Positions 23,956 through 43,081 of a stretch of DNA of 43,377 nucleotides are shown one piece after another (position 1 is the first letter of the stretch; every line of letters begins with the position of its first letter). This stretch comes from a virus, in the IMG/VR virus record IMGVR_UViG_3300026075_000018, positions 1 through 43,377 of that record; one strand, given 5' to 3'. The notes under the pieces were generated by a model. It saw nothing but the letters and a program-made list of their open reading frames with translations. It was not told where the DNA came from and ran no database searches. The translations under genes were made by a program, and so were the position numbers.

Positions 23956-24189
23956 ATGGGTTGGTTAGAACTTATCGCAGCTGTCTTGATGAACGTACTT
24001 ATCTTGGCAGTTACGATCTATGTGGTGCTCTATGTTCTAGTACCATTTGCGATGTTATGTGTTGTTGTCGCTAAGTACGATCTCTCTTCTAAGAAGCGAC
24101 AAGAAGAGAAGGAACGCGAGAAGAATGCCGCAAATGGCTACGTAATGACGAATGAGGAGTTGGATCGGATGTATGGTGGCCCTTGGTGA
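23956..24189 (+). CDS. Small membrane protein
   Basis: A 77-residue protein whose first 38 residues are almost entirely hydrophobic (LELIAAVLMNVLILAVTIYV continuing to AMLCVVVA), forming one long or two short membrane helices. The remainder is charged (KKRQEEKEREKN) and ends DRMYGGPW. GGAGAGGAGGATT provides a strong ribosome site. It overlaps the next gene, at 24173, by 17 bases, so the two are co-translated. No family recognised. Confidence 0.7.
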   Translation: MGWLELIAAVLMNVLILAVTIYVVLYVLVPFAMLCVVVAKYDLSSKKRQEEKEREKNAANGYVMTNEELDRMYGGPW

Positions 24190-24958
24190 TCTAATTAAGC
24201 GGCTCGAGAAGCTTGTAGTAGACAATTCGCCAACCATACTCACTGCGATTGGTGTGACTGGTACTCTCACTACAGCATATTTGACCGCACAAGCTACATT
24301 CAAGGCTGCAGAACTTATCTATCTAGAAGAAGTGCGTCGGCTAGAGTTACGTAAACAAGGCGACGAGTCACCGGGTTACCTGCTTCCCAAAGACGCCGTT
24401 AAGCTTGTCTGGAAGTTGTATATCCCTTCAGCAGCTACTGCTGCAATGACGATTGCTTCCATCATCGGGTCAGATCGTATCAGTTCCCGTCGTGCAGCCG
24501 CGGTAGCTGTTGCATATTCCATCACTGAGAAGGCCTTCGCAGAGTATCGCGACAAGGTTGTCGAGAAGATCGGAGAGAAGAAGGAAGAAGCCATTCGCTC
24601 TGAGTTGGCTCAAGCACGTGTCGACAGGGATCCCGTTGGCAACGCCACAGTCATCATCGGAGAAGGACGAGTTCTGTGTTACGAAGAGTTCACCGGGCGT
24701 TTCTTCTACTCTGATATGGAGTCACTCCGGAGGGCTGAGAACGACATCAATGCGCAGGTCATCAACGACTCATATGCAGCACTGTCGGATCTGTATGACC
24801 TGCTCAGCTTGCCCCATACTTCCGAATCAAGCGAGGTCGGATGGAATCTTGACCGACTCCTCAAGCTGGAGTTCTCGCCCCTGATATCGGAAGGTCGTCC
24901 GTGCATATCTGTCGGGTTCTCTGTTAAGCCCATCCGTGGTTTCGCCCGACTCCAGTAA
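24173..24958 (+). CDS. DUF6353-like phage membrane protein, copy 1
   Basis: A 261-residue protein resembling the DUF6353-type phage family. An N-terminal membrane helix (SPTILTAIGVTGTLTTAYLT) is followed by a charged linker and a second hydrophobic stretch (YIPSAATAAMTIASIIG). The conserved block RRAAAVAVAYSITEKAFAEY comes next. The C-terminal half includes FTGRFFYSDMESLRRAENDI and LSDLYDLLSLP. A paralog with the same layout lies at 27291. The start is uncertain: ATG 24173 overlaps the previous gene and has only a modest ribosome site. Function of the family is unknown; it commonly sits near tail and lysis genes. Confidence 0.65.
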   Translation: MVALGDLIKRLEKLVVDNSPTILTAIGVTGTLTTAYLTAQATFKAAELIYLEEVRRLELRKQGDESPGYLLPKDAVKLVWKLYIPSAATAAMTIASIIGSDRISSRRAAAVAVAYSITEKAFAEYRDKVVEKIGEKKEEAIRSELAQARVDRDPVGNATVIIGEGRVLCYEEFTGRFFYSDMESLRRAENDINAQVINDSYAALSDLYDLLSLPHTSESSEVGWNLDRLLKLEFSPLISEGRPCISVGFSVKPIRGFARLQ

Positions 24959-27153: not shown

Positions 27154-27291
27154 ATGGCTACGATGTCGGAGCGTGAGCTTCTGAAGAAAGCATATCCTTA
27201 CCCCACATGGTGGGCAAAAGTCAACAAGATGTCCGACGCCCAGGTACATGCAATCTTCATACAAATGAGACTGAAAGGAAAGGTTGCGTAA
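27154..27291 (+). CDS. Small conserved phage protein (45 residues)
   Basis: A 45-residue protein: SERELLKKAYPYPTWWAKV, then KMSDAQVHAIFIQMRLKGKV. The AYP-P-WxxKVxKMSDxQVxAI pattern is a common short phage protein, usually found beside its neighbours here. No strong ribosome site is visible before the ATG at 27154. Its stop shares a base with the next start (TAATG), indicating coupling with the gene at 27291. Confidence 0.65.
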   Translation: MATMSERELLKKAYPYPTWWAKVNKMSDAQVHAIFIQMRLKGKVA

Positions 27292-28181
27292 TGAACCTCA
27301 AACCACTAGCGAATGCGGTGACCAGTCGAGTCGGTCGCCAGGTACTGAAAGTTCGTAAGCACTCACCTGTTCTTCTGTTCACCGCCGGCGTTGTCGGAGT
27401 CGTCAGCGCGGCCGTCCTTGCAAGTCGGGCCACTCTGAAGCTCGACGAGATCCTGCTTGATGCTGAAGAGGATCTCGAGAAGGTTCGCCGGGCCGAACTG
27501 ATGACATACTCCGACGAGATGCGTGAACGCGACAAGGTCATCATCTATGTTCGTACCGGCATGCGGATTGCTCGTGTCTATGCGCCTGCGGTCGGCGTCG
27601 GAGTGCTCTCCATCCTCGCTCTTACTGGCTCACATGTCATCCTCACCAAGCGGAACGCAGCTATGGCCGCGGCCTACGCTGTCCTCGACAGGGGGTTCCG
27701 GGAGTACCGGGCCCGAGTCGAGGAAGCTTACGGCGCTGATCGTGAGCGAGAACTTCGCTATGGTCTTGAAGAGCGAGAGATCTTCGACGATGAGACCGGG
27801 AAGGCGACGACCGTTCGGGATCTCATGACCAAGGGATCTATCTATGCTCGATTGTTCGATGAGACGAACCAGAACTGGAAGAAGGAACATCACTACAACC
27901 AGTTCTTCTTGTCTGCGCAGCAGCAGTACTGCAACGACAAGTTGCGGGCCCAGGGTCACCTGTTCCTGAACGAGGTCTACGACATGCTCGGACTGGATCG
28001 ATCCAAGGAAGGCGCCATCGTCGGATGGATCTGGAACGACTGTGACGGATCCGAGAACAACTACGTCGACTTCGGCATCTTCGTCGGCAACCGAGAGATG
28101 GGCATGCGGTTTGCCAGAGGGTACGAGCGGTCGATTTGGCTCGACTTCAACGTCGACGGCATCATCTACGACAAGATTTAG
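27291..28181 (+). CDS. DUF6353-like phage membrane protein, copy 2
   Basis: A 296-residue paralog of the protein at 24173. An N-terminal membrane helix (SPVLLFTAGVVGVVSAAVLA) is followed by a charged coil, a second hydrophobic stretch (YAPAVGVGVLSILALTG) and the conserved KRNAAMAAAYAVLDRGFREY. It is longer than copy 1 by an insertion around LFDETNQNWKKEHHYNQF and ends with FARGYERSIWLDFNVDG. GAAAGGAAAGG precedes the ATG. Codon use is more C-rich than in copy 1, so the copies may differ in expression or history. Two copies in one genome suggests they form a hetero-complex or act at different times (inference). Confidence 0.7.
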   Translation: MNLKPLANAVTSRVGRQVLKVRKHSPVLLFTAGVVGVVSAAVLASRATLKLDEILLDAEEDLEKVRRAELMTYSDEMRERDKVIIYVRTGMRIARVYAPAVGVGVLSILALTGSHVILTKRNAAMAAAYAVLDRGFREYRARVEEAYGADRERELRYGLEEREIFDDETGKATTVRDLMTKGSIYARLFDETNQNWKKEHHYNQFFLSAQQQYCNDKLRAQGHLFLNEVYDMLGLDRSKEGAIVGWIWNDCDGSENNYVDFGIFVGNREMGMRFARGYERSIWLDFNVDGIIYDKI

Positions 28182-29457: not shown

Positions 29458-29471
29458 CGGGAGGAGGGTAG

Positions 29472-32400
29472 ATGGATTTCTTTCAGATTCTTGAGAGAGA
29501 AGTCAAAGGTGGAGCTGTTGAGTTAGTTCCTGACTTCACCGTTGCTAGGTCTAGAGATCTGATGATTCGAGGCCGTTCGTTTTACGCCATCTGGGATGAG
29601 GATACGCAGCTTTGGTCCACAGATGAATATGACGTACAACGAATGGTCGACCAAGCCATCTTCCGCAGAGTAATCGAACTCGAGGGTGAAGGTAAGATTG
29701 TAAAGGCTAAGTATCTCCGATCGTTTGCGAACAACGGATGGACTCAGTTCAGAAGGTTTCTTGGCAATGTTAGTGACAACTCACATCAACTCGACGAGGA
29801 GCTGACGTTCCTAAATACGCCTACAAAGAAGGAAGATTATGTCAGCCGTCGTTTACCATATGCTCTCGCTGAAGGTGATTACAGTGCTTGGGATGAACTC
29901 GCGGGGACGCTTTACTCTCCTGAAGAGCGTGCGAAGATCGAGTGGGCTATTGGTGCTGTACTGTCTGGCGATGCCAAGAAGATCCAGAAGTTCTTGGTCT
30001 TTTACGGTGCTGCCGGAACCGGGAAGTCAACCGTCCTCAACATCATTCAAAGGCTCTTCGTGGGTTATTACGTATCCTTCGAAGCGAAAGCGCTTACGGG
30101 GAACAACAATTCGTTCGCGACGGAGGTCTTCAGATCAAACCCCCTAGTTGCGATCCAACACGACGGGGACTTGAGCAAGATTGAGGACAACTCAAAACTG
30201 AACTCCATCATATCTCACGAAGATATGACCATGAACGAAAAGTACAAACCGAGTTACACTGCTCGTATCAATGCGTTCTTGTTCATGGGAACAAACAGGC
30301 CAGTAAGAATCTCAGACGCTAAGAGTGGGATCATTAGACGTCTGATTGATGTGAGACCCACTGGTGTTAAGATCCCAATCAATCACTACAACACGTTGAT
30401 GGCGAGGATTGAGTTCGAACTTGGAGCCATCGCTTACCACTGTTTAGCGGTCTATCGCTCGATGGGCAAGAACTACTACAATAGTTATCGCCCAATGGAG
30501 ATGATGTTTCAAACTGATGTCTTCTTTAACTTTGTCGAGGCCCACTACGACATCTTTAGGGATCAGGATGGCATCTCACTCAAGCAAGCCTACGCTCTCT
30601 ACAAGACTTACTGCGCTGAAACGGGTGTGGATTTCGTACTACCGCAGTACAAAGTCCGTGAAGAGCTTAGGAACTACTTCAAAGAGTTCTTAGAGCGAAC
30701 GAATGTCGGCGGTGTTACTATACGTAGCTACTATTCTGGTTTCACTTCCGAGCACTTCAAGACACCTGTTGCTGATAGCACTAACGTTTTTAGTCTTGTT
30801 CTTGAGGAAACTACTTCTTTACTTGATCTGGAGCTGGCGGATCAACCAGCACAATACGCGAAGGAAGATGGAACCCCGGAACAATATTGGACCGACGAAG
30901 AACGTGTAATCAACGGAATCTTTAGAAAACCGAAATCGTGGCAGGTAGTTAAAACGACTCTCAGTGAGTTGAATACCTCTAAAGTACATTACGTACGAGT
31001 CCCAGAGAACCACATCGTTATCGATTTCGACATAAGGGACGAAGATGGTAACAAATCTCTTGAACGAAATCTTGCAGCGGCTAGTGAATGGCCGCCCACT
31101 TATGGGGAGCTTAGTAAGAGCGGACAAGGAGTACACCTCCATTACCATTACACTGATGAAGCAACCCTCGACCAATTGGCACCTTCTTACGGTGACGGGA
31201 TCGAGGTCAAATCCTTCAGGGGTAATTCCTCACTCCGCCGAGCTCTTAGTAGATGTAACTCCGTACCTATAGCCGAAATCAATGGCGGTCTGCCGCTGAA
31301 GGAGAAGAAGGTGCTTCAAGCCGATACGATTCACAGCGAGAAGGGCCTGCGTGAACTCATCAAGCGGAACCTGCGTAAGGAGATTCACCCGGGAACTAAG
31401 CCTTCAATCGACTTCATTGCGCATATCCTGAACGAAGCCTACGAGTCAGGACTTGTTTATGATTTAACTGACATGCGTAATCGGATTATGGCATTCGCTA
31501 ACAATAGCAGTAATCAACCGTTGGCGTGCCTCAAAGTTGTCCAGAAGATGCACTTCAAATCTGAAGACGTTGAACTTTGTCTCGGAGATGGATCGACCGC
31601 TGTTGTTACGTCTGAGGTCAAGGACGAGCGTCTAGTCTTCTACGACGTAGAGGTTTACCCAAACCTCTTCGTGGTCTGCTGGAAGTACCGAGGTGTAGAC
31701 AACGTCGTTAAGATGATCAACCCAACTCCTCAGGAGATAGAGGGGTTGTTCCTTCTTAAACTGGTTGGCTTCAATAATCGTCGGTATGACAACCACATGA
31801 TATGGGCGCGTTTCATGGGGTATGACAACGAGCAACTATACAAGCTTAGCCAGAAGATCATCGAAGGTAATGTTGGTTCCATGTTCGGCGAGGCATACAA
31901 CCTGTCTTACGCAGACGTGTATGACTTCAGTTCGGTCAAGAAGGGACTGAAGAAATTCCAGATCGACTTGGGTATTCATCATGTCGAGATAGATCTGCCG
32001 TGGGATCAACCCGTACCTACAAACCGGATCAAAGATGTCGTCGACTACTGCTGTAACGATGTCATATCGCTAGAAGCCGTGTTCGATTCGAGGGAACAGG
32101 ACTTCATTGCGAGGCAAATCCTTGCAGAACTTAGTGGACTTACTGTCAACGACACCACACAGAAGCACACCGCTGCAATCGTGTTCGGTGGAGATCGCAA
32201 CCCACAACGCAGCTTCGTCTATACTGATCTCAGTAAGGAGTTCCCAGGTTATGCCTATGATCGCGGTAAGAGTACATATCGCGGGGAAGATGTGGGCGAA
32301 GGAGGTTATGTCTACGCCGAGCCTGGCATGTATACGGATGTCGCCGTTCTGGACGTCGCTTCCATGCACCCGACGTCGATCAAAGTCCTTAACCTATTCG

Positions 32401-33305
32401 GTGAGTACACGTCAAGGTTCGCAGAGCTAACGACGGCTCGAATCGCCATCAAGAGGAAGGACTTCGGTGCTGCACGAAAGGCCATGGGTGGTAAGCTCGC
32501 CCCCTTCCTTAAGGATGAGTCACAGGCAAAGGCTCTTAGTGACGCTCTTAAGATCATTATCAACATTGTCTATGGTCTTACTAGCGCAAAGTTCGACAAC
32601 CCCTTCCGAGACAACCGAAACAAAGACAACATCGTAGCCAAGCGTGGTGCACTCTTCATGATCGATCTCAAACACTACATCAAAGAAATGGGGTTTGATG
32701 TAGTTCACATCAAAACTGACTCGGTGAAGATCCCAAACGCTACACCAGAGATCATCGACGCAGTTAAAGTGTTCGGTCAGAAGTACGGTTATGAGTTTGA
32801 ACACGAGGTTACGTACGACCAGCTCTGTCTCGTGAATGATGCTGTCTACATCGCTCGAGAAGATGAGTGTCTAGTGCCGAAGTGGACCGCAGTAGGTGCA
32901 CAGTTCCAGCACCCATACGTCTTCAAGACACTCTTCACTAAAGAAGAAGTTACCTTCGACGACTTGTGTGAAGCGAAATCCGTCTCTCAAGGAGCCATGT
33001 ACTTGGACTTCGAGGCTGACCGGCCAATGGTTCTTGTGGAAGGGATGCAGTTCGTCGGTCGTACAGGTCTGTTCGTGCCCGTCAAAACCAAGGGTGGTGT
33101 TCTCTATCGTGTGAAGGACGGCAAGCATTACGCCGTCACTGGAACGAAGGGCTACCGTTGGATCGAGGCGGAGCATGCTAGGAACATGTCTACGGAAGAT
33201 GTGGACATGTCATACTTTGAACATCTAGCAGAGGAGGCTTACAAGGCTATCGACTACTGGGGCCCATTCGCTACGTTTGTTGGCGGGAGGATAGATGCCA
33301 CATGA
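29472..33305 (+). CDS. Fused SF3 helicase, AEP primase and family B DNA polymerase
   Basis: A 1277-residue replicase with three enzyme parts. Part 1 (about 1-400) is an SF3/D5-like helicase: Walker A GAAGTGKS at 179-186, acidic HDGD near Asp231-Asp233, sensor GTNRP near 273-277. Part 2 (about 440-620) looks like an archaeo-eukaryotic primase: DFD (Asp518, Asp520), SGQGVHLH (550-557) and EVKSFRGN (578-585). Part 3 (about 720-1200) resembles a 3'-5' exonuclease plus family B polymerase: YDVEVYP (Asp725, Glu727), motif A LDVASMHPTSI (Asp961), motif B KIIINIVYG (1027-1035) and motif C KTDS (Asp1083). The first Asp of the usual DTDS is Lys here. GGAGGAGGGTAG precedes the ATG. The order helicase-primase-polymerase in one chain is unusual. 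Confidence 0.85.
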   Translation: MDFFQILEREVKGGAVELVPDFTVARSRDLMIRGRSFYAIWDEDTQLWSTDEYDVQRMVDQAIFRRVIELEGEGKIVKAKYLRSFANNGWTQFRRFLGNVSDNSHQLDEELTFLNTPTKKEDYVSRRLPYALAEGDYSAWDELAGTLYSPEERAKIEWAIGAVLSGDAKKIQKFLVFYGAAGTGKSTVLNIIQRLFVGYYVSFEAKALTGNNNSFATEVFRSNPLVAIQHDGDLSKIEDNSKLNSIISHEDMTMNEKYKPSYTARINAFLFMGTNRPVRISDAKSGIIRRLIDVRPTGVKIPINHYNTLMARIEFELGAIAYHCLAVYRSMGKNYYNSYRPMEMMFQTDVFFNFVEAHYDIFRDQDGISLKQAYALYKTYCAETGVDFVLPQYKVREELRNYFKEFLERTNVGGVTIRSYYSGFTSEHFKTPVADSTNVFSLVLEETTSLLDLELADQPAQYAKEDGTPEQYWTDEERVINGIFRKPKSWQVVKTTLSELNTSKVHYVRVPENHIVIDFDIRDEDGNKSLERNLAAASEWPPTYGELSKSGQGVHLHYHYTDEATLDQLAPSYGDGIEVKSFRGNSSLRRALSRCNSVPIAEINGGLPLKEKKVLQADTIHSEKGLRELIKRNLRKEIHPGTKPSIDFIAHILNEAYESGLVYDLTDMRNRIMAFANNSSNQPLACLKVVQKMHFKSEDVELCLGDGSTAVVTSEVKDERLVFYDVEVYPNLFVVCWKYRGVDNVVKMINPTPQEIEGLFLLKLVGFNNRRYDNHMIWARFMGYDNEQLYKLSQKIIEGNVGSMFGEAYNLSYADVYDFSSVKKGLKKFQIDLGIHHVEIDLPWDQPVPTNRIKDVVDYCCNDVISLEAVFDSREQDFIARQILAELSGLTVNDTTQKHTAAIVFGGDRNPQRSFVYTDLSKEFPGYAYDRGKSTYRGEDVGEGGYVYAEPGMYTDVAVLDVASMHPTSIKVLNLFGEYTSRFAELTTARIAIKRKDFGAARKAMGGKLAPFLKDESQAKALSDALKIIINIVYGLTSAKFDNPFRDNRNKDNIVAKRGALFMIDLKHYIKEMGFDVVHIKTDSVKIPNATPEIIDAVKVFGQKYGYEFEHEVTYDQLCLVNDAVYIAREDECLVPKWTAVGAQFQHPYVFKTLFTKEEVTFDDLCEAKSVSQGAMYLDFEADRPMVLVEGMQFVGRTGLFVPVKTKGGVLYRVKDGKHYAVTGTKGYRWIEAEHARNMSTEDVDMSYFEHLAEEAYKAIDYWGPFATFVGGRIDAT

Positions 33306-34072: not shown

Positions 34073-34250
34073 CGAATCAGAACGCCTACGCCAGGCTATC
34101 GCTGCTCATACCTCAGCCACCCAAGGTCTCTCTAAAGTACTGGCAGCTCTTCGAGAGAGTATTCTCGACTTCCATCGGGAATGGCGAGAGATGAACCAAA
34201 CTAATCAGAACACCACATCTTCGGAAGAAGGTACTGATGGCAAACGGTGA
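34065..34250 (+). CDS. Small helical protein (61 residues)
   Basis: A 61-residue protein consisting mainly of one or two helices (SERLRQAIAAHTSATQGLSK, VLAALRESILDFHREWREM) and a polar tail (NQTNQNTTSSEEGTDGKR). Heptad-like spacing suggests oligomerisation. The ATG overlaps the previous gene's end and the tail overlaps the next gene by 14 bases. No family recognised. Confidence 0.6.
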   Translation: MASESERLRQAIAAHTSATQGLSKVLAALRESILDFHREWREMNQTNQNTTSSEEGTDGKR

Positions 34251-34758
34251 GCACATTACTTTCGACGACGCCCGACTTCTCTTCAAGAACTTCGCCGGCA
34301 AGGAGACGAAGTTCAACCGTGAGGGTGATCGCAACTTCTGTGTGGTCATCCCGAAAGACGACATCGTCGAGCAGCTCCTCGAGGACGGATGGAACGTCAA
34401 GACTCTGGCTCCTCGTGAAGAGGGCGACGATCCACTTCACTACATGAAGGTCTCGGTGAGCTACAAGGGGCGGCCGCCGAAGATCGTCATCATCACTTCC
34501 CGTGGCCGGACCGACATCGATCAGGATCTCGTGTCCATGCTGGACTTCGCGGACATGGCGAAGGTCGATCTGATCGTTCGTCCTTACCACTGGACCGTCA
34601 AGGGTGACAGTGGCGTGTCTGCTTACCTCAAGACCATGTTCGTCACCATTCGTGAGGACGAGCTCGAACTGCGTTACGCCGACGTCCCAGAGATCGCCTA
34701 CCCGAGGACATTGGCCATCGAGTCTGGCAACTTCGTTGACGGGGAGGTCATCGACTGA
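34237..34758 (+). CDS. Putative ssDNA-binding protein
   Basis: A 173-residue protein resembling single-stranded DNA-binding proteins of Gram-positive phages. Recognisable segments are ITFDDARLLFKNFAGKETKF, REGDRNFCVVIPKDDI, LEDGWNVKTLAPREEGDD, HYMKVSVSYKGRPPKIVIIT, LDFADMAKVDLIVRPYHW and SGVSAYLKTMFVTI. A compact beta-rich fold like an OB domain is likely. Codon use is C-rich, unlike its neighbours, which fits a protein needed in many copies. It would cover the unwound strands produced by the fused replicase encoded at 29472. GAAGAAGG precedes the ATG. It lacks a long acidic tail, although the end (VDGEVID) is acidic. Confidence 0.7.
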   Translation: MANGEHITFDDARLLFKNFAGKETKFNREGDRNFCVVIPKDDIVEQLLEDGWNVKTLAPREEGDDPLHYMKVSVSYKGRPPKIVIITSRGRTDIDQDLVSMLDFADMAKVDLIVRPYHWTVKGDSGVSAYLKTMFVTIREDELELRYADVPEIAYPRTLAIESGNFVDGEVID

Positions 34759-37856: not shown

Positions 37857-39155
37857 TTGCTCCAGACATATCTCTATCCCCATCAGCAAGACGCCCTTAC
37901 CAGACTTGGAAACGGCAAGATCCTCTGGGGAGGGGTCGGCACCGGTAAGTCCCGAGTCGCCGCGGCCTACTACATCCAGAAAGAAGCCCCCCGCCAAGTC
38001 ATCGTCATCACGACGGCCAAGAAGCGAGACTCCCTCGAGTGGGAAGGGGAGTTCGTCAAGTACGGGGTCGGCAAGACGGAAGAAGCCACCACCCAAGGCG
38101 TTCTCACAGTCGACTCCTGGAACAACATCGCCAAGTACCAGAACCTCTACGGAGCCTTCTTCATCTTCGACGAGCAGCGACTTGTCGGCTCCGGCAAATG
38201 GGTCAAGTCGTTCATCAGGATCTCTCGGCGTAACCATTGGATCCTACTTAGCGCTACTCCTGGTGACACGTGGCTTGATTACATACCGGTCTTCATAGCC
38301 AACGGGTTCTTCGACAACCAGACCCACTTCAAGCGTGAGCATGTGATCTACAAGACGTACAGCAAGTTTCCCAAGGTTGACCGGTATGTTGGCCTTGGGA
38401 AGCTGCTGCGTTTGAGGAACAGTATCTTGGTAGAGATGCCCTATCTTAGACAGACGGTCAGGCATTGTAAGGACGTGATCGTCGACTATGATCAAGAACT
38501 ATACAATAGGGTGGTGAAACGTAAGTGGCACGTCTATGCGAATCGACCACTGAAGAACGTTCCGGAACTATTCCTTGTGATGAGGAAGGTTGTAAACTCC
38601 GACTCCTCGCGGGTTGGCTGGGTACGTCAGTTGCTCAACAAGCATTCGAGACTCATTGTGTTCTACAACTTCGACTACGAGCTGGACTTGCTGAGGAGCC
38701 TGGCATCTCAGTTGAGCCCCTCGGAGAACCACAAGACTACCGAGTTGTTAGTTCCTTCGAACTTGAGCGATACAAAACCGATCATGAACCTGAGTTCCCC
38801 GAGCGACGAGATCTTACAGAAGAAATCGAATGGTATAAAGATCGACGTCGCCGAATGGAACGGCCACAAACACGAACCGATCCCCCGGAATGATTGCTGG
38901 CTTTACTTAGTGCAGTATTCGGCTGGGGCAGAGGGGTGGAACTGCGTCACTACTAATGCGATGTGCTTCTACTCCTTGCCCTATTCATACAAGCTTTGGC
39001 ATCAAGCACATGGTCGAATTGATCGATTGAATACCCCTTACATCGACTTGTATTACTACTCTCTTCTAACAAACTCGGACATCGATCGGGCTATCAAGCG
39101 ATCTCTCGATGCTAAGAAGAGCTTCAATGAATCTGTATATCGTAGGGCAAGATAG
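37857..39155 (+). CDS. SF2 (SNF2/DEAD-like) helicase
   Basis: A 432-residue DNA or RNA helicase. Motifs in order: YPHQQDAL (7-14), Walker A GGVGTGKS (25-32), motif II FDEQ (104-107; Q replaces the usual H or D), motif III LSATPGDTW (131-139), and near the end motif VI QAHGRIDR (383-390). This is close to the small SNF2-like helicases that sit beside primase-polymerase genes in Gram-positive phages. It probably remodels DNA during replication. TTG at 37857 follows AAAAGGAGGTCGCATC at a good distance. The repeats at 39164-39287 begin 9 bases after the stop. Confidence 0.85.
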   Translation: MLQTYLYPHQQDALTRLGNGKILWGGVGTGKSRVAAAYYIQKEAPRQVIVITTAKKRDSLEWEGEFVKYGVGKTEEATTQGVLTVDSWNNIAKYQNLYGAFFIFDEQRLVGSGKWVKSFIRISRRNHWILLSATPGDTWLDYIPVFIANGFFDNQTHFKREHVIYKTYSKFPKVDRYVGLGKLLRLRNSILVEMPYLRQTVRHCKDVIVDYDQELYNRVVKRKWHVYANRPLKNVPELFLVMRKVVNSDSSRVGWVRQLLNKHSRLIVFYNFDYELDLLRSLASQLSPSENHKTTELLVPSNLSDTKPIMNLSSPSDEILQKKSNGIKIDVAEWNGHKHEPIPRNDCWLYLVQYSAGAEGWNCVTTNAMCFYSLPYSYKLWHQAHGRIDRLNTPYIDLYYYSLLTNSDIDRAIKRSLDAKKSFNESVYRRAR

Positions 39156-39586: not shown

Positions 39587-39898
39587 ATGCTAGAGAGCAA
39601 GTACCAAGCTCAACTGATCAAAACTCTTCGTCGCCTATTCCCAGGGTGCGTCATCTTGAAGAACGATTCGGACTACATGCAAGGAATCCCAGATTTAGTC
39701 ATCTTCTTCGGTGGACGTTGGGCCTTCCTCGAGGTTAAGGCTTCCGAGTATGCGCCAAGTCAATCTAATCAAGAGTACTGGGTGAACTATCTAAACGACA
39801 TGTGGTTCGCAGCATTCATCTACCCTGAGAATGAAGCGGAGATCTTAGATGCTCTTCAACAAGCACTCGAATCTGTTAGGAACCCATGCGTTTCTTAG
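39587..39898 (+). CDS. VRR-NUC-type nuclease
   Basis: A 103-residue nuclease of the VRR-NUC / PD-(D/E)xK superfamily. The core is intact: KNDSDYMQGIPDLVIFFGG with Asp36, then WAFLEVKASE with Glu49 and Lys51, and the following QSNQEYW with Gln62. Such compact proteins often sit next to phage helicases and cut branched or flap DNA during replication. CAGGAGTACATC precedes the ATG. Its end overlaps the next gene by 50 bases. First gene after P13. Confidence 0.85.
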   Translation: MLESKYQAQLIKTLRRLFPGCVILKNDSDYMQGIPDLVIFFGGRWAFLEVKASEYAPSQSNQEYWVNYLNDMWFAAFIYPENEAEILDALQQALESVRNPCVS

Positions 39899-40409
39899 TG
39901 CCAGCAACTATCATTGGATCAACTACGACGAGGAGAAGCTCGATCGTACGTACCTAGCCTCCATGGCAGCTAAACGTGGTAGAGAACTTCATGAGTTCGC
40001 CAAGGAAGCAATCCGTTTGGGAATCAAACTCCCCGCAGCTAAGAGGACTTTGAATCTTTACGTCAATGATGCTATCGGCTATCGAATGACAGCTGAACAG
40101 GTTCTCTACTTTTCGCCAAATTGTTATGGTACAGCCGACACCATCGGCTTTCGTCATAATAAGTTGCGGATTCATGACTTGAAGACCGGAGTGACTGAGG
40201 CTTCCGTTCATCAACTAGAAGTGTATGCAGCACTCTTCTGTCTGGAGTATCGCGTGAAACCTACCGCAATCCAGATAGAGTTGCGCATCTATCAACAAGA
40301 TGAGATCAAGATCTACGATGGTGATCCGGATGTGATAACGCACATCATTGACCGGATCGTTACATTCGACAAGCGGATCAACGCGATGCGACAGGAGGTT
40401 GTCTCATGA
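39849..40409 (+). CDS. RecB/Cas4-like PD-(D/E)xK nuclease
   Basis: A 186-residue nuclease of the RecB/Cas4-like type. It has RGRELHEFA with His48, GTADTIG with Asp97, IHDLKTG with Asp110 and Lys112, and HQLEVYAALF with Gln122 and Tyr126, covering the five RecB-type motifs. There are no Cys residues arranged as in the iron-sulphur cluster of true Cas4, so it is more like phage recombination or DNA-processing nucleases. The ATG at 39849 has GGAG 8 bases ahead; no alternative in-frame start fits, so the 50-base overlap with 39587 is accepted. It overlaps the polymerase candidate by 4 bases. Confidence 0.8.
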   Translation: MLFNKHSNLLGTHAFLSASNYHWINYDEEKLDRTYLASMAAKRGRELHEFAKEAIRLGIKLPAAKRTLNLYVNDAIGYRMTAEQVLYFSPNCYGTADTIGFRHNKLRIHDLKTGVTEASVHQLEVYAALFCLEYRVKPTAIQIELRIYQQDEIKIYDGDPDVITHIIDRIVTFDKRINAMRQEVVS

Positions 40410-43081
40410 TCCTTGAAGAGGGCGAGTATCTCGCGCACTACGGTATTCTGCGACGCTCTGGTCGCTATCCGTGGGGATCGGGCGGTAACGTCACTACCAG
40501 AAGTCGAAGCTTCTTGGATCACGTCCGAGAACTTAGGAACCAAGGTTTGAGTGATGCGACTATCGCATCAGGCTTTGGGATGACTACGACAGAACTTCGT
40601 GCTGCCAACTCCATCGCAAGAAATGAGAGCAAGCAGGCAGATATAGCTCAGGCTCAGCGTTTGAAAGATAAGGGATGGTCGAACATCGCTATCGGTAAAC
40701 GTATGGGCAGAAACGAATCGTATGTTCGTGGTCTCTTGGCTCCAGGTCAGAAGGACAAGGCTGATATCCTAGTCGCCACGTCTAACAAGCTGAAGAGTGA
40801 TGTTGATACTCATGGTTTCATTGACGTAGGTGTCGGTGTCGAGAGACACATGGGCGTTAGTCGCACTCGTCTGGACACAGCTATCGCTCGCTTGAAAGAG
40901 CAAGGCTATGAAGTACACTCAGTCCAGATCGATCAGTTAGGTACTACAGGCAAAACTACAGTGAAGGTGCTAGCGCCTCCTGGTACTACATACCGCGACA
41001 TCGTTACAAACAAGAGTGCGATTCATTCGATTGCTGGTTACTCAACCGATGGTGGTCGTTCTTACGAAGTCTTTCATCCTCCACTCTCTATTAGCTCGAA
41101 GCGTTTGGATATTAAGTACGCTGAAGATGGTGGAACCTCAGCCGATGGCGTGATCTACGTTCGTCGTGGTGTGAAGGATGTATCTCTTGGTGGGGCTAAC
41201 TATGCTCAGGTTCGTATCGTTATCGATGGTACGCACTACATCAAGGGTATGGCGATGTACAAGGATGACTTGCCTCCAGGAGTTGACCTTCAGTTCAACA
41301 CTAACAAGTCGAGTACTGGCCATAAGCTTGATGCTTTGAAAGAACTGAAGAAGGATAGAGAAACTGGAGAGATTGATCCTGATCTTCCCTTTGGTTCTGT
41401 CATTCGACGTCAAGTCTTGGAAACTGATAGTAATGGTCATAAGAAGGTAACCTCTGCTATGAACTTGGTGAATGAGCAAGGAACATGGGACACTTGGTCT
41501 CGTAGCCTTTCTTCACAGGTTCTTTCTAAGCAGAGTCCAACCTTAGCAAGAGAACAACTTCGAATGGTGATTGATCGGAAGCAACACGAACTGGATGAGA
41601 TTCTTTCACTTACTAATCCGGCCGTGCGTAAGAAGCTTCTCGAGGAGTTTGCTGATGAAGCCGACTCAGCCTCTGTACATCTAAAGGCTGCCGCCCTTCC
41701 AAGACAAGCCAGTCATGTGATTCTTCCTGTAAACTCCTTGAAGGATAGTGAAGTCTTTGCTCCAGGGTATCGTAACGGAGAGAGAGTCGTTCTGATTCGT
41801 CATCCACATGGTGGTAAGTTTGAGATTCCTGAGCTTACTGTTAACAACCGTAACGCTGAAGCTAAGCGTCTTATCGGCAGTGATGCACAGGATGCAGTAG
41901 GTATCAATCATAAGGTAGCACAACGTTTGTCTGGTGCTGACTTCGATGGCGATGCCGTCCTAGTCATCCCCAATACAGGTGGGAAGATCAAGACATCTCC
42001 TGCTCTAGAGGGATTGAAGAACTTTGACCCCATCTCTTCTTACCCTGGCTATCCTGGTATGTCGAAGATGACAGCCCAGAAGAAAGGGTTTGAGATGGGA
42101 GATGTCTCTAACCTGATTACAGACATGACCATCCAAGGTGCTCACAATAATGAGATTGCCCGTGCTGTTCGTCACTCCATGGTTGTCATCGATGCTGAGA
42201 AGCATGGACTCAACTACAAACAATCGGCTATTGACAACGGCATCGCACAATTGAAACAGAAGTACCAAGGTAAGGCGGATGCGGGTGCAAGAACTCTAAT
42301 CTCGAGAGCTAAATCTCGTATAGACGTTCCTGCTAGGAAGCCTAGGTCTGCAGCTAAGGGTGGACCAATAGACAAGGCTACTGGAAAGAGAGTCTTCGAG
42401 CCTACTGGCGAACAATTTGTTGGACGTAACGGCAAGATAGTAGTAGTTAAGACTCGGTCTAAGCAATTGGCTGAAGTTGACGATGCTCATACCTTGTCGT
42501 CGGGTACTAAGATAGAAACCATCTACGCTGATCATTCCAACAAACTTAAGTCCATGGCTAACCAAGCAAGGCGTGAGATGGTTGCTACTGGTAACACTAA
42601 GTGGTCACCAACTGCTAAAGCCGCCTACTCGAAACAAGTAGACTCCCTTAGAGCTAAGCTAAACATTGCTTTGAGGAACGCCCCCGTTGAAAGACACGCC
42701 CAGCTCATAGCAAACACCACCGTCGCAATTAAACGGGCAGCAAACCCCGACATGGATCAAGCCGACGTCAAGAAACTTAAATCAAAAGCTCTAAACGATG
42801 CTCGTGCAAGAACCGGGGCTGGTAAACATCGAATTCACATCACCGATGCAGAATGGGATGCCATTCAAGCCGGTGCCATAAGTAACAATGAACTAAGTAA
42901 GATCTTGTCTAATGCAGACGCTGATCGTGTTCGAGCCCTCGCCACTCCTAGAAGTAAGGTTCTTATGACCTCTGCTAAGACCGCCCGTGCCAAGAGAATG
43001 CTTGCTTCTGGATACACCCAGGCAGAGGTGGCCGATGCACTAGGAGTTTCTCTAACAACACTCAAGGAGGGTGTTAAGTAG
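40406..43081 (+). CDS. Candidate single-chain RNA polymerase (YonO / crAss-like type)
   Basis: An 891-residue protein. Residues about 471-520 end in RLSGADFDGDAVLVIP, closely matching the active-site loop of bacterial RpoC (NADFDGDQMAVHVP). The three aspartates are D512, D514 and D516. A single chain with this loop is the hallmark of YonO of phage SPbeta, crAss-like virion polymerases and eukaryotic RNA-dependent polymerases. The N-terminus has HYGILRRSGRYPWGSGG (11-27), then two helix-turn-helix segments (GLSDATIASGFGMT near 47-60, GWSNIAIGKRMGRNESYVRG near 90-109); a third, TQAEVADALGVSLTTLKEG, ends the protein. ATG 40406 overlaps the nuclease stop. Activity and template (DNA assumed) are unproven. 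Confidence 0.75.
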   Translation: MILEEGEYLAHYGILRRSGRYPWGSGGNVTTRSRSFLDHVRELRNQGLSDATIASGFGMTTTELRAANSIARNESKQADIAQAQRLKDKGWSNIAIGKRMGRNESYVRGLLAPGQKDKADILVATSNKLKSDVDTHGFIDVGVGVERHMGVSRTRLDTAIARLKEQGYEVHSVQIDQLGTTGKTTVKVLAPPGTTYRDIVTNKSAIHSIAGYSTDGGRSYEVFHPPLSISSKRLDIKYAEDGGTSADGVIYVRRGVKDVSLGGANYAQVRIVIDGTHYIKGMAMYKDDLPPGVDLQFNTNKSSTGHKLDALKELKKDRETGEIDPDLPFGSVIRRQVLETDSNGHKKVTSAMNLVNEQGTWDTWSRSLSSQVLSKQSPTLAREQLRMVIDRKQHELDEILSLTNPAVRKKLLEEFADEADSASVHLKAAALPRQASHVILPVNSLKDSEVFAPGYRNGERVVLIRHPHGGKFEIPELTVNNRNAEAKRLIGSDAQDAVGINHKVAQRLSGADFDGDAVLVIPNTGGKIKTSPALEGLKNFDPISSYPGYPGMSKMTAQKKGFEMGDVSNLITDMTIQGAHNNEIARAVRHSMVVIDAEKHGLNYKQSAIDNGIAQLKQKYQGKADAGARTLISRAKSRIDVPARKPRSAAKGGPIDKATGKRVFEPTGEQFVGRNGKIVVVKTRSKQLAEVDDAHTLSSGTKIETIYADHSNKLKSMANQARREMVATGNTKWSPTAKAAYSKQVDSLRAKLNIALRNAPVERHAQLIANTTVAIKRAANPDMDQADVKKLKSKALNDARARTGAGKHRIHITDAEWDAIQAGAISNNELSKILSNADADRVRALATPRSKVLMTSAKTARAKRMLASGYTQAEVADALGVSLTTLKEGVK
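40436..40486 (+). other. HYG...YPWGSGG motif of the polymerase candidate
   Basis: Residues 11-27, HYGILRRSGRYPWGSGG, share the HYG start, basic centre and aromatic-W-G end with the HYGxRGMKWG motif of the proteins at 1997 and 5069. The match is partial. If that motif marks virion proteins, this polymerase may be packaged in the capsid. Confidence 0.5.

Follow-up and report, generated by a model that had tools for sequence, protein, structure and literature searches.

A HelPrimPolB/GP55-type replicase predicted from a single open reading frame in a tailed-phage genome

Results

The replicase gene and its genomic context

The window, meaning the whole 43,377-base virus record that was analysed, carries terminase, portal, head protease and tail genes of tailed-phage type. 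Positions 29472-33305 hold one uninterrupted open reading frame of 1277 codons on the plus strand, which starts with ATG and is covered over residues 1-1271 by the PHROGs profile phrog_4210 ("DNA polymerase"; E=0, 2049 bits).

29472..33305, +: HelPrimPolB/GP55-type replicase, 1277 aa (single ORF; phrog_4210; GP55 homology)

The 1277-aa protein is odd to the eye because Pfam alone shows just a DUF5906 helicase (E=1.5e-12) and a sub-threshold Prim-Pol match. A preliminary description of this DNA had listed helicase, primase and polymerase motifs in that order within the 1277 residues, and all of them are present as it described. The domain order that we assign is D5-type SF3 helicase, AEP (PriS-like) primase, helical linker, family B 3′-5′ exonuclease and polymerase; judged by sequence, this set and order of motifs far exceeds what chance would be expected to give. 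The catalytic residues named below, N768 aside, are invariant or nearly so in about 200 relatives, with K1027 occurring as K or R. AlphaFold2 models were built with 28 window and IMG/VR sequences and have a mean pLDDT of 85.8 (residues 1-712) and 85.0 (residues 430-1277).

Downstream of the replicase, the same strand carries the following genes.

34237..34758, +: putative phage ssDNA-binding/single-strand annealing protein (PF24083, E=1e-67; phrog_4787, E=3e-63)
37857..39155, +: second, separate DNA helicase (phrog_62, E=4e-51)
39587..39898, +: VRR-NUC-like endonuclease (phrog_93 endonuclease, E=7.6e-14; synteny with the VRR-Nuc of RosaAsantewaa)
39849..40409, +: RecB-like exonuclease (phrog_3953, E=3.7e-76; Pfam DUF2800)

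The second helicase and the putative annealing protein belong to the replication module of the replicase. The window proteins that were scanned against Pfam and PHROGs include no further primase or DNA polymerase family. Phage 1706 has this module too, with a single-strand annealing protein, a helicase, an endonuclease, an exonuclease and a gene annotated as RNA-dependent RNA polymerase. Streptomyces phage RosaAsantewaa carries a homologue of the replicase at 29462-33289 of its 42.7-kb genome, nearly the same position as in the window, followed in order by helicase, HNH, VRR-Nuc, RecB-like exonuclease and HTH protein genes.

Positions 40406-43081 of the window encode an 891-aa phrog_4291 protein (E=0) labelled RNA-dependent RNA polymerase, in which the stretch SGADFDGDAV resembles the DxDGD of two-barrel RNA polymerases and the C-terminus has an HTH match; a gene so labelled is also present in phage 1706 (gp75). 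Upstream of the replicase are two phrog_2152 genes (24152-24958 and 27207-28181), the second with a DUF6353 match.

Helicase domain

The N-terminal part of the protein is assigned to the D5-type helicases.

29793..30752, +: D5-type SF3 helicase, residues about 108-427 (DUF5906; structural match)
30006-30032, +: Walker A GAAGTGKST, with K185, equivalent to GP55 K189 (motif; alignment)

Pfam DUF5906 matches all 28 of 28 family members. The model of residues 1-712 matched the SaPI5 primase-helicase (Z 21.4, 369 residues), vaccinia D5 (Z 18.2) and NrS-1, and AAV Rep40 was matched over residues 108-339 (Z 14.1). Both Pfam and the fold search of the model point to an SF3 AAA+ fold with Walker A, the combination by which the D5 type is recognised.

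Like the SaPI5 primase-helicase (PDB 7ola, 7om0), the NrS-1 PrimPol and poxvirus D5, the window protein joins a D5-type SF3 domain to an AEP. However, the AEP stands before the helicase in those three, whereas here it follows the helicase and has a PolB fused behind it. A profile of the window protein matched the SaPI5 chain in two pieces of swapped order, strongly over the helicase and weakly over the AEP motif stretch. This rearrangement is not new, because GP55 of phage 1706 has the same.

AEP primase and helical domain

The region that follows the helicase is assigned to the AEP primases.

30834..31286, +: AEP/PriS-like primase, residues about 455-605 (PHROG profiles; invariant motifs; GP55 D509)
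31023-31031, +: AEP motif DFD, D518/D520 (motif)
31134-31136, +: AEP H555, in SGQGVHLHY (motif)
31203-31205, +: AEP E578, in IEVK (motif)

This assignment is supported by motif conservation, PHROG profiles and GP55 mutant data. Residues 479-598 match phrog_695 (DNA polymerase/primase; E=2.2e-6), phrog_3022 (DNA primase) matches the AEP region (E=1.8e-4), and the AEP motifs hhDhD, sxH and hD/hE are represented by D518/D520, H555 and E578, respectively. D520 corresponds to GP55 D509, mutation of which abolishes primase activity (PMC12205980). Pfam Prim-Pol is the best match in 20 of 38 members, yet lies under the curated cut-off. A PDB profile search with the AEP and helical region gave chance matches only, with no AEP chain among them, and in fold searches of the larger models the lists were filled by helicases or polymerases, leaving AEP domains unlisted for the middle region.

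The weak similarity to AEPs in Pfam could be taken to mean that the AEP has decayed and that the family B domain starts synthesis by itself, as primer-independent PolBs do; these enzymes, like the window protein, also lack the first Asp of motif C (PMC7544198). Such a decay is very improbable in view of D518, D520, H555 and E578, each of which is retained in 203 of 203 relatives. Moreover, GP55 D509A loses primer synthesis, and GP55 mutants without a functional primase domain carry out no de novo DNA synthesis (PMC12205980).

Between the AEP primase and the exonuclease sits a helical domain, an addition to the domains of the preliminary description.

31329..31556, +: helical domain equivalent to GP55 aHD, residues about 620-695 (predicted helices; conserved Y663/F675)

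Four helices are predicted here in the AlphaFold2 model (623-634, 642-658, 666-677 and 683-691). Of 203 relatives, 191 have Y at position 663 and the other 12 have F, and F675 is present in all 203. The equivalent GP55 residues, Y655 and F667, are both needed for primer synthesis (PMC12205980).

Exonuclease and polymerase domains

The C-terminal part is assigned to a proofreading exonuclease followed by a family B polymerase.

31623..32081, +: 3′-5′ proofreading exonuclease, residues about 718-870 (invariant Exo motifs; KOD match)
32082..33302, +: family B polymerase palm, fingers and thumb, residues about 871-1277 (KOD match; Pol II profile)
32352-32354, +: D961 of motif A, DVASMHP (equivalent to GP55 D949)
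32550-32576, +: motif B, K1027...N1031..YG1035 (motif)

The Exo motifs are ExoI (D725-x-E727), ExoII (N768...D773) and ExoIII (Y859...D863), in which D725, E727, D773, Y859 and D863 are invariant among about 200 relatives. The conserved Asn of the ExoII NN is the first, N768, which 42 of 43 aligned sequences share; the second, residue 769, is often Cys (83 of 204 relatives). In GP55, mutation of D712/E714 (D725/E727 here) abolishes exonuclease activity, and mutation of D949 (D961 here) abolishes polymerase activity (PMC12205980).

In the model of residues 430-1277, the stretch 718-1267, from exonuclease through thumb, aligns with KOD polymerase residues 134-751 (VIA Z 15.5, 447 residues, rmsd 7.1), and Foldseek matched the model to 9N polymerase (7.6e-18). 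Its exonuclease, palm and thumb resemble those of KOD, of Pol alpha and of E. coli Pol II, and the last of these is also matched by a profile of the protein (E=7e-8). The preliminary description had named a C-terminal part without a polymerase palm as a result that would count against it. This is not borne out; palm, fingers and thumb match those of solved family B polymerases, and together with the exonuclease they make up a predicted fold that bears motifs A, B and C.

Motif C

32712..32723, +: motif C KTDS, K1081-S1084 (K1081 and D1083 invariant)

The sequence does read KTDS, with Lys for the first Asp of the usual DTDS, as had been noted; what does not stand is its interpretation as a loss in this protein, since the Lys is fixed in the family. 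Of the 203 relatives with data, all 203 have K1081 and D1083, as does GP55 (HVKTDSFK), a set partly biased for Lys in that one locus search pattern contained KTDS itself; the 33 loci and the isolate-phage tblastn records were not selected on motif C, and those that cover the motif have Lys as well. Motif C is NTDG in phage PolBs that are more distant (Listeria P35, Eggerthella EL753P1).

The polymerases of RB69 and phi29 bind their metals through the Asp of motif A and the second Asp of motif C. The remark that only D961 and D1083 remain as obvious metal ligands is accurate, yet these are the normal pair, the two carboxylates that coordinate the catalytic metals in ordinary family B polymerases. 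As both are kept, the polymerase site of the window protein looks complete.

Alternatively, loss of the first motif C Asp may have impaired the polymerase and left a protein that is mainly a helicase-primase. The KTDS reading itself invites this view, and archaeal PolB2 enzymes without that Asp were long believed inactive (PMC7544198). Primer-independent PolBs without it are nevertheless highly active (PMC7544198), GP55 has KTDS yet polymerizes efficiently (PMC12205980), and the Lys is invariant in 203 relatives whose motifs A and B and exonuclease are all intact. An impaired polymerase is consequently very unlikely, and KTDS as a sign of an inactive or degenerate enzyme was rejected. Searching the literature for primer-independent PolBs that carry a KTD motif gave nothing pertinent.

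The conservation indicates that KTDS is no defect but is fixed throughout the family, so that what the lysine does becomes a well-defined question for experiment. One tentative and rather doubtful suggestion is that the invariant Lys is a functional substitution by which the family B site can take over very short AEP-made primers. Such a Lys might, for example, contact the triphosphate or the end of a short RNA primer supplied by the AEP of the same or a partner chain.

Relationship to GP55 and HelPrimPolB

GP55 of Lactococcus phage 1706 (YP_001828703.1) aligns with the window protein end to end at 39% identity. All seven GP55 positions whose mutation abolishes an activity (K189, D509, Y655, F667, D712, E714 and D949) are identical here (K185, D520, Y663, F675, D725, E727 and D961, respectively), and these are invariant across about 200 relatives, Y663 (Y/F) excepted. 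The two proteins are alike in domain order, in all functionally tested residues, in KTDS and in their neighbouring replication genes; they differ in length (1277 aa here versus 1317 aa) and in host group. Helicase, RNA primase, exonuclease and polymerase activities of GP55 have been reported together with the corresponding mutants; its helicase runs on UTP or dTTP, giving strand displacement, and the enzyme copies 7.2-kb M13 DNA in 0.2 min (PMC12205980). Because identity is 39%, the window protein may depart from GP55 in its preference for UTP/dTTP, in its priming site (CCAAC in GP55) and in being a dimer.

The name HelPrimPolB comes from a family B survey (NAR 2020), where it denotes a helicase-PrimPol-PolB fusion with a divergent motif C (PMC7544198). 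The window protein likewise has an SF3 helicase and a PrimPol N-terminal to a PolB with divergent motif C, and comparison with the published description detected no difference. It shows the domain order in one chain, the seven key residues and the divergent motif C that define the HelPrimPolB/GP55 group. Genes annotated "DNA primase/polymerase" in Gordonia, Arthrobacter, Streptomyces and Rhodococcus phages (mostly 50–65% identity over 98–100% of the length) are close orthologues that differ by sequence drift only.

Proposed function

We consider it about 95% probable, from sequence and model comparisons, that the product of this gene replicates the genome of a tailed phage and belongs to the GP55/HelPrimPolB family; the host is probably an actinobacterium. 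The earlier proposal that one chain unwinds, primes and copies DNA is supported by structure prediction and by homology over the whole length to GP55, whose individual activities have all been measured. We infer every enzymatic activity of the window protein by homology. The N-terminal D5-type SF3 motor would open the duplex ahead of the polymerase, and the AEP and its helical partner domain would lay a short RNA primer on the exposed template. The C-terminal family B domain, with D961 and D1083 as its metal ligands, would then add dNTPs to this primer, and the DED exonuclease of the same chain would proofread.

The enzyme type is already known, named and biochemically characterised, and the window protein is an ordinary member of the family. 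With its identification, a single-chain replicase already studied biochemically is seen in a further phage lineage; such enzymes are of practical interest for DNA amplification without added primers.

Distribution and broken copies

The supposed rarity of the architecture did not hold up. A tblastn search against isolate phages gave 350 records, 252 of which carry the architecture, with at least 80% of the protein covered, and more than 1000 homologues have been reported (PMC12205980). Full-length relatives include those of Rhodococcus, Gordonia, Arthrobacter, Streptomyces and Curtobacterium phages and of Lactococcus phages 1706 and P118, with up to 65% identity in the best named isolates. Scans of IMG/VR and bacterial genomes added many further metagenomic-phage and prophage-like loci, the bacterial contigs including Hungatella, Blautia and Faecalibacterium. 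One full-length ORF is present in 186 of the 204 collected loci.

Several loci depart from this pattern. In Bifidobacterium phage BitterVaud1 (MT006236.1, L037:3001-7631), the homologue is split into two ORFs just upstream of motif A, with the break at window residues 948|952 and an unrelated ORF of ~213 aa in between; this is possibly a natural split polymerase, and an Rfam search of the split gene and of the whole window gave no match and no intron. A Lachnospiraceae MAG contig (L204:2645-6583) has an apparent single in-frame stop near window residue 920, shortly before motif A. Streptomyces phage pSt2402 (L049:698-1438) has an extra short ORF annotated as DNA polymerase, 28% identical to helicase residues 139-330, which is perhaps a partial duplicate alongside the full gene.
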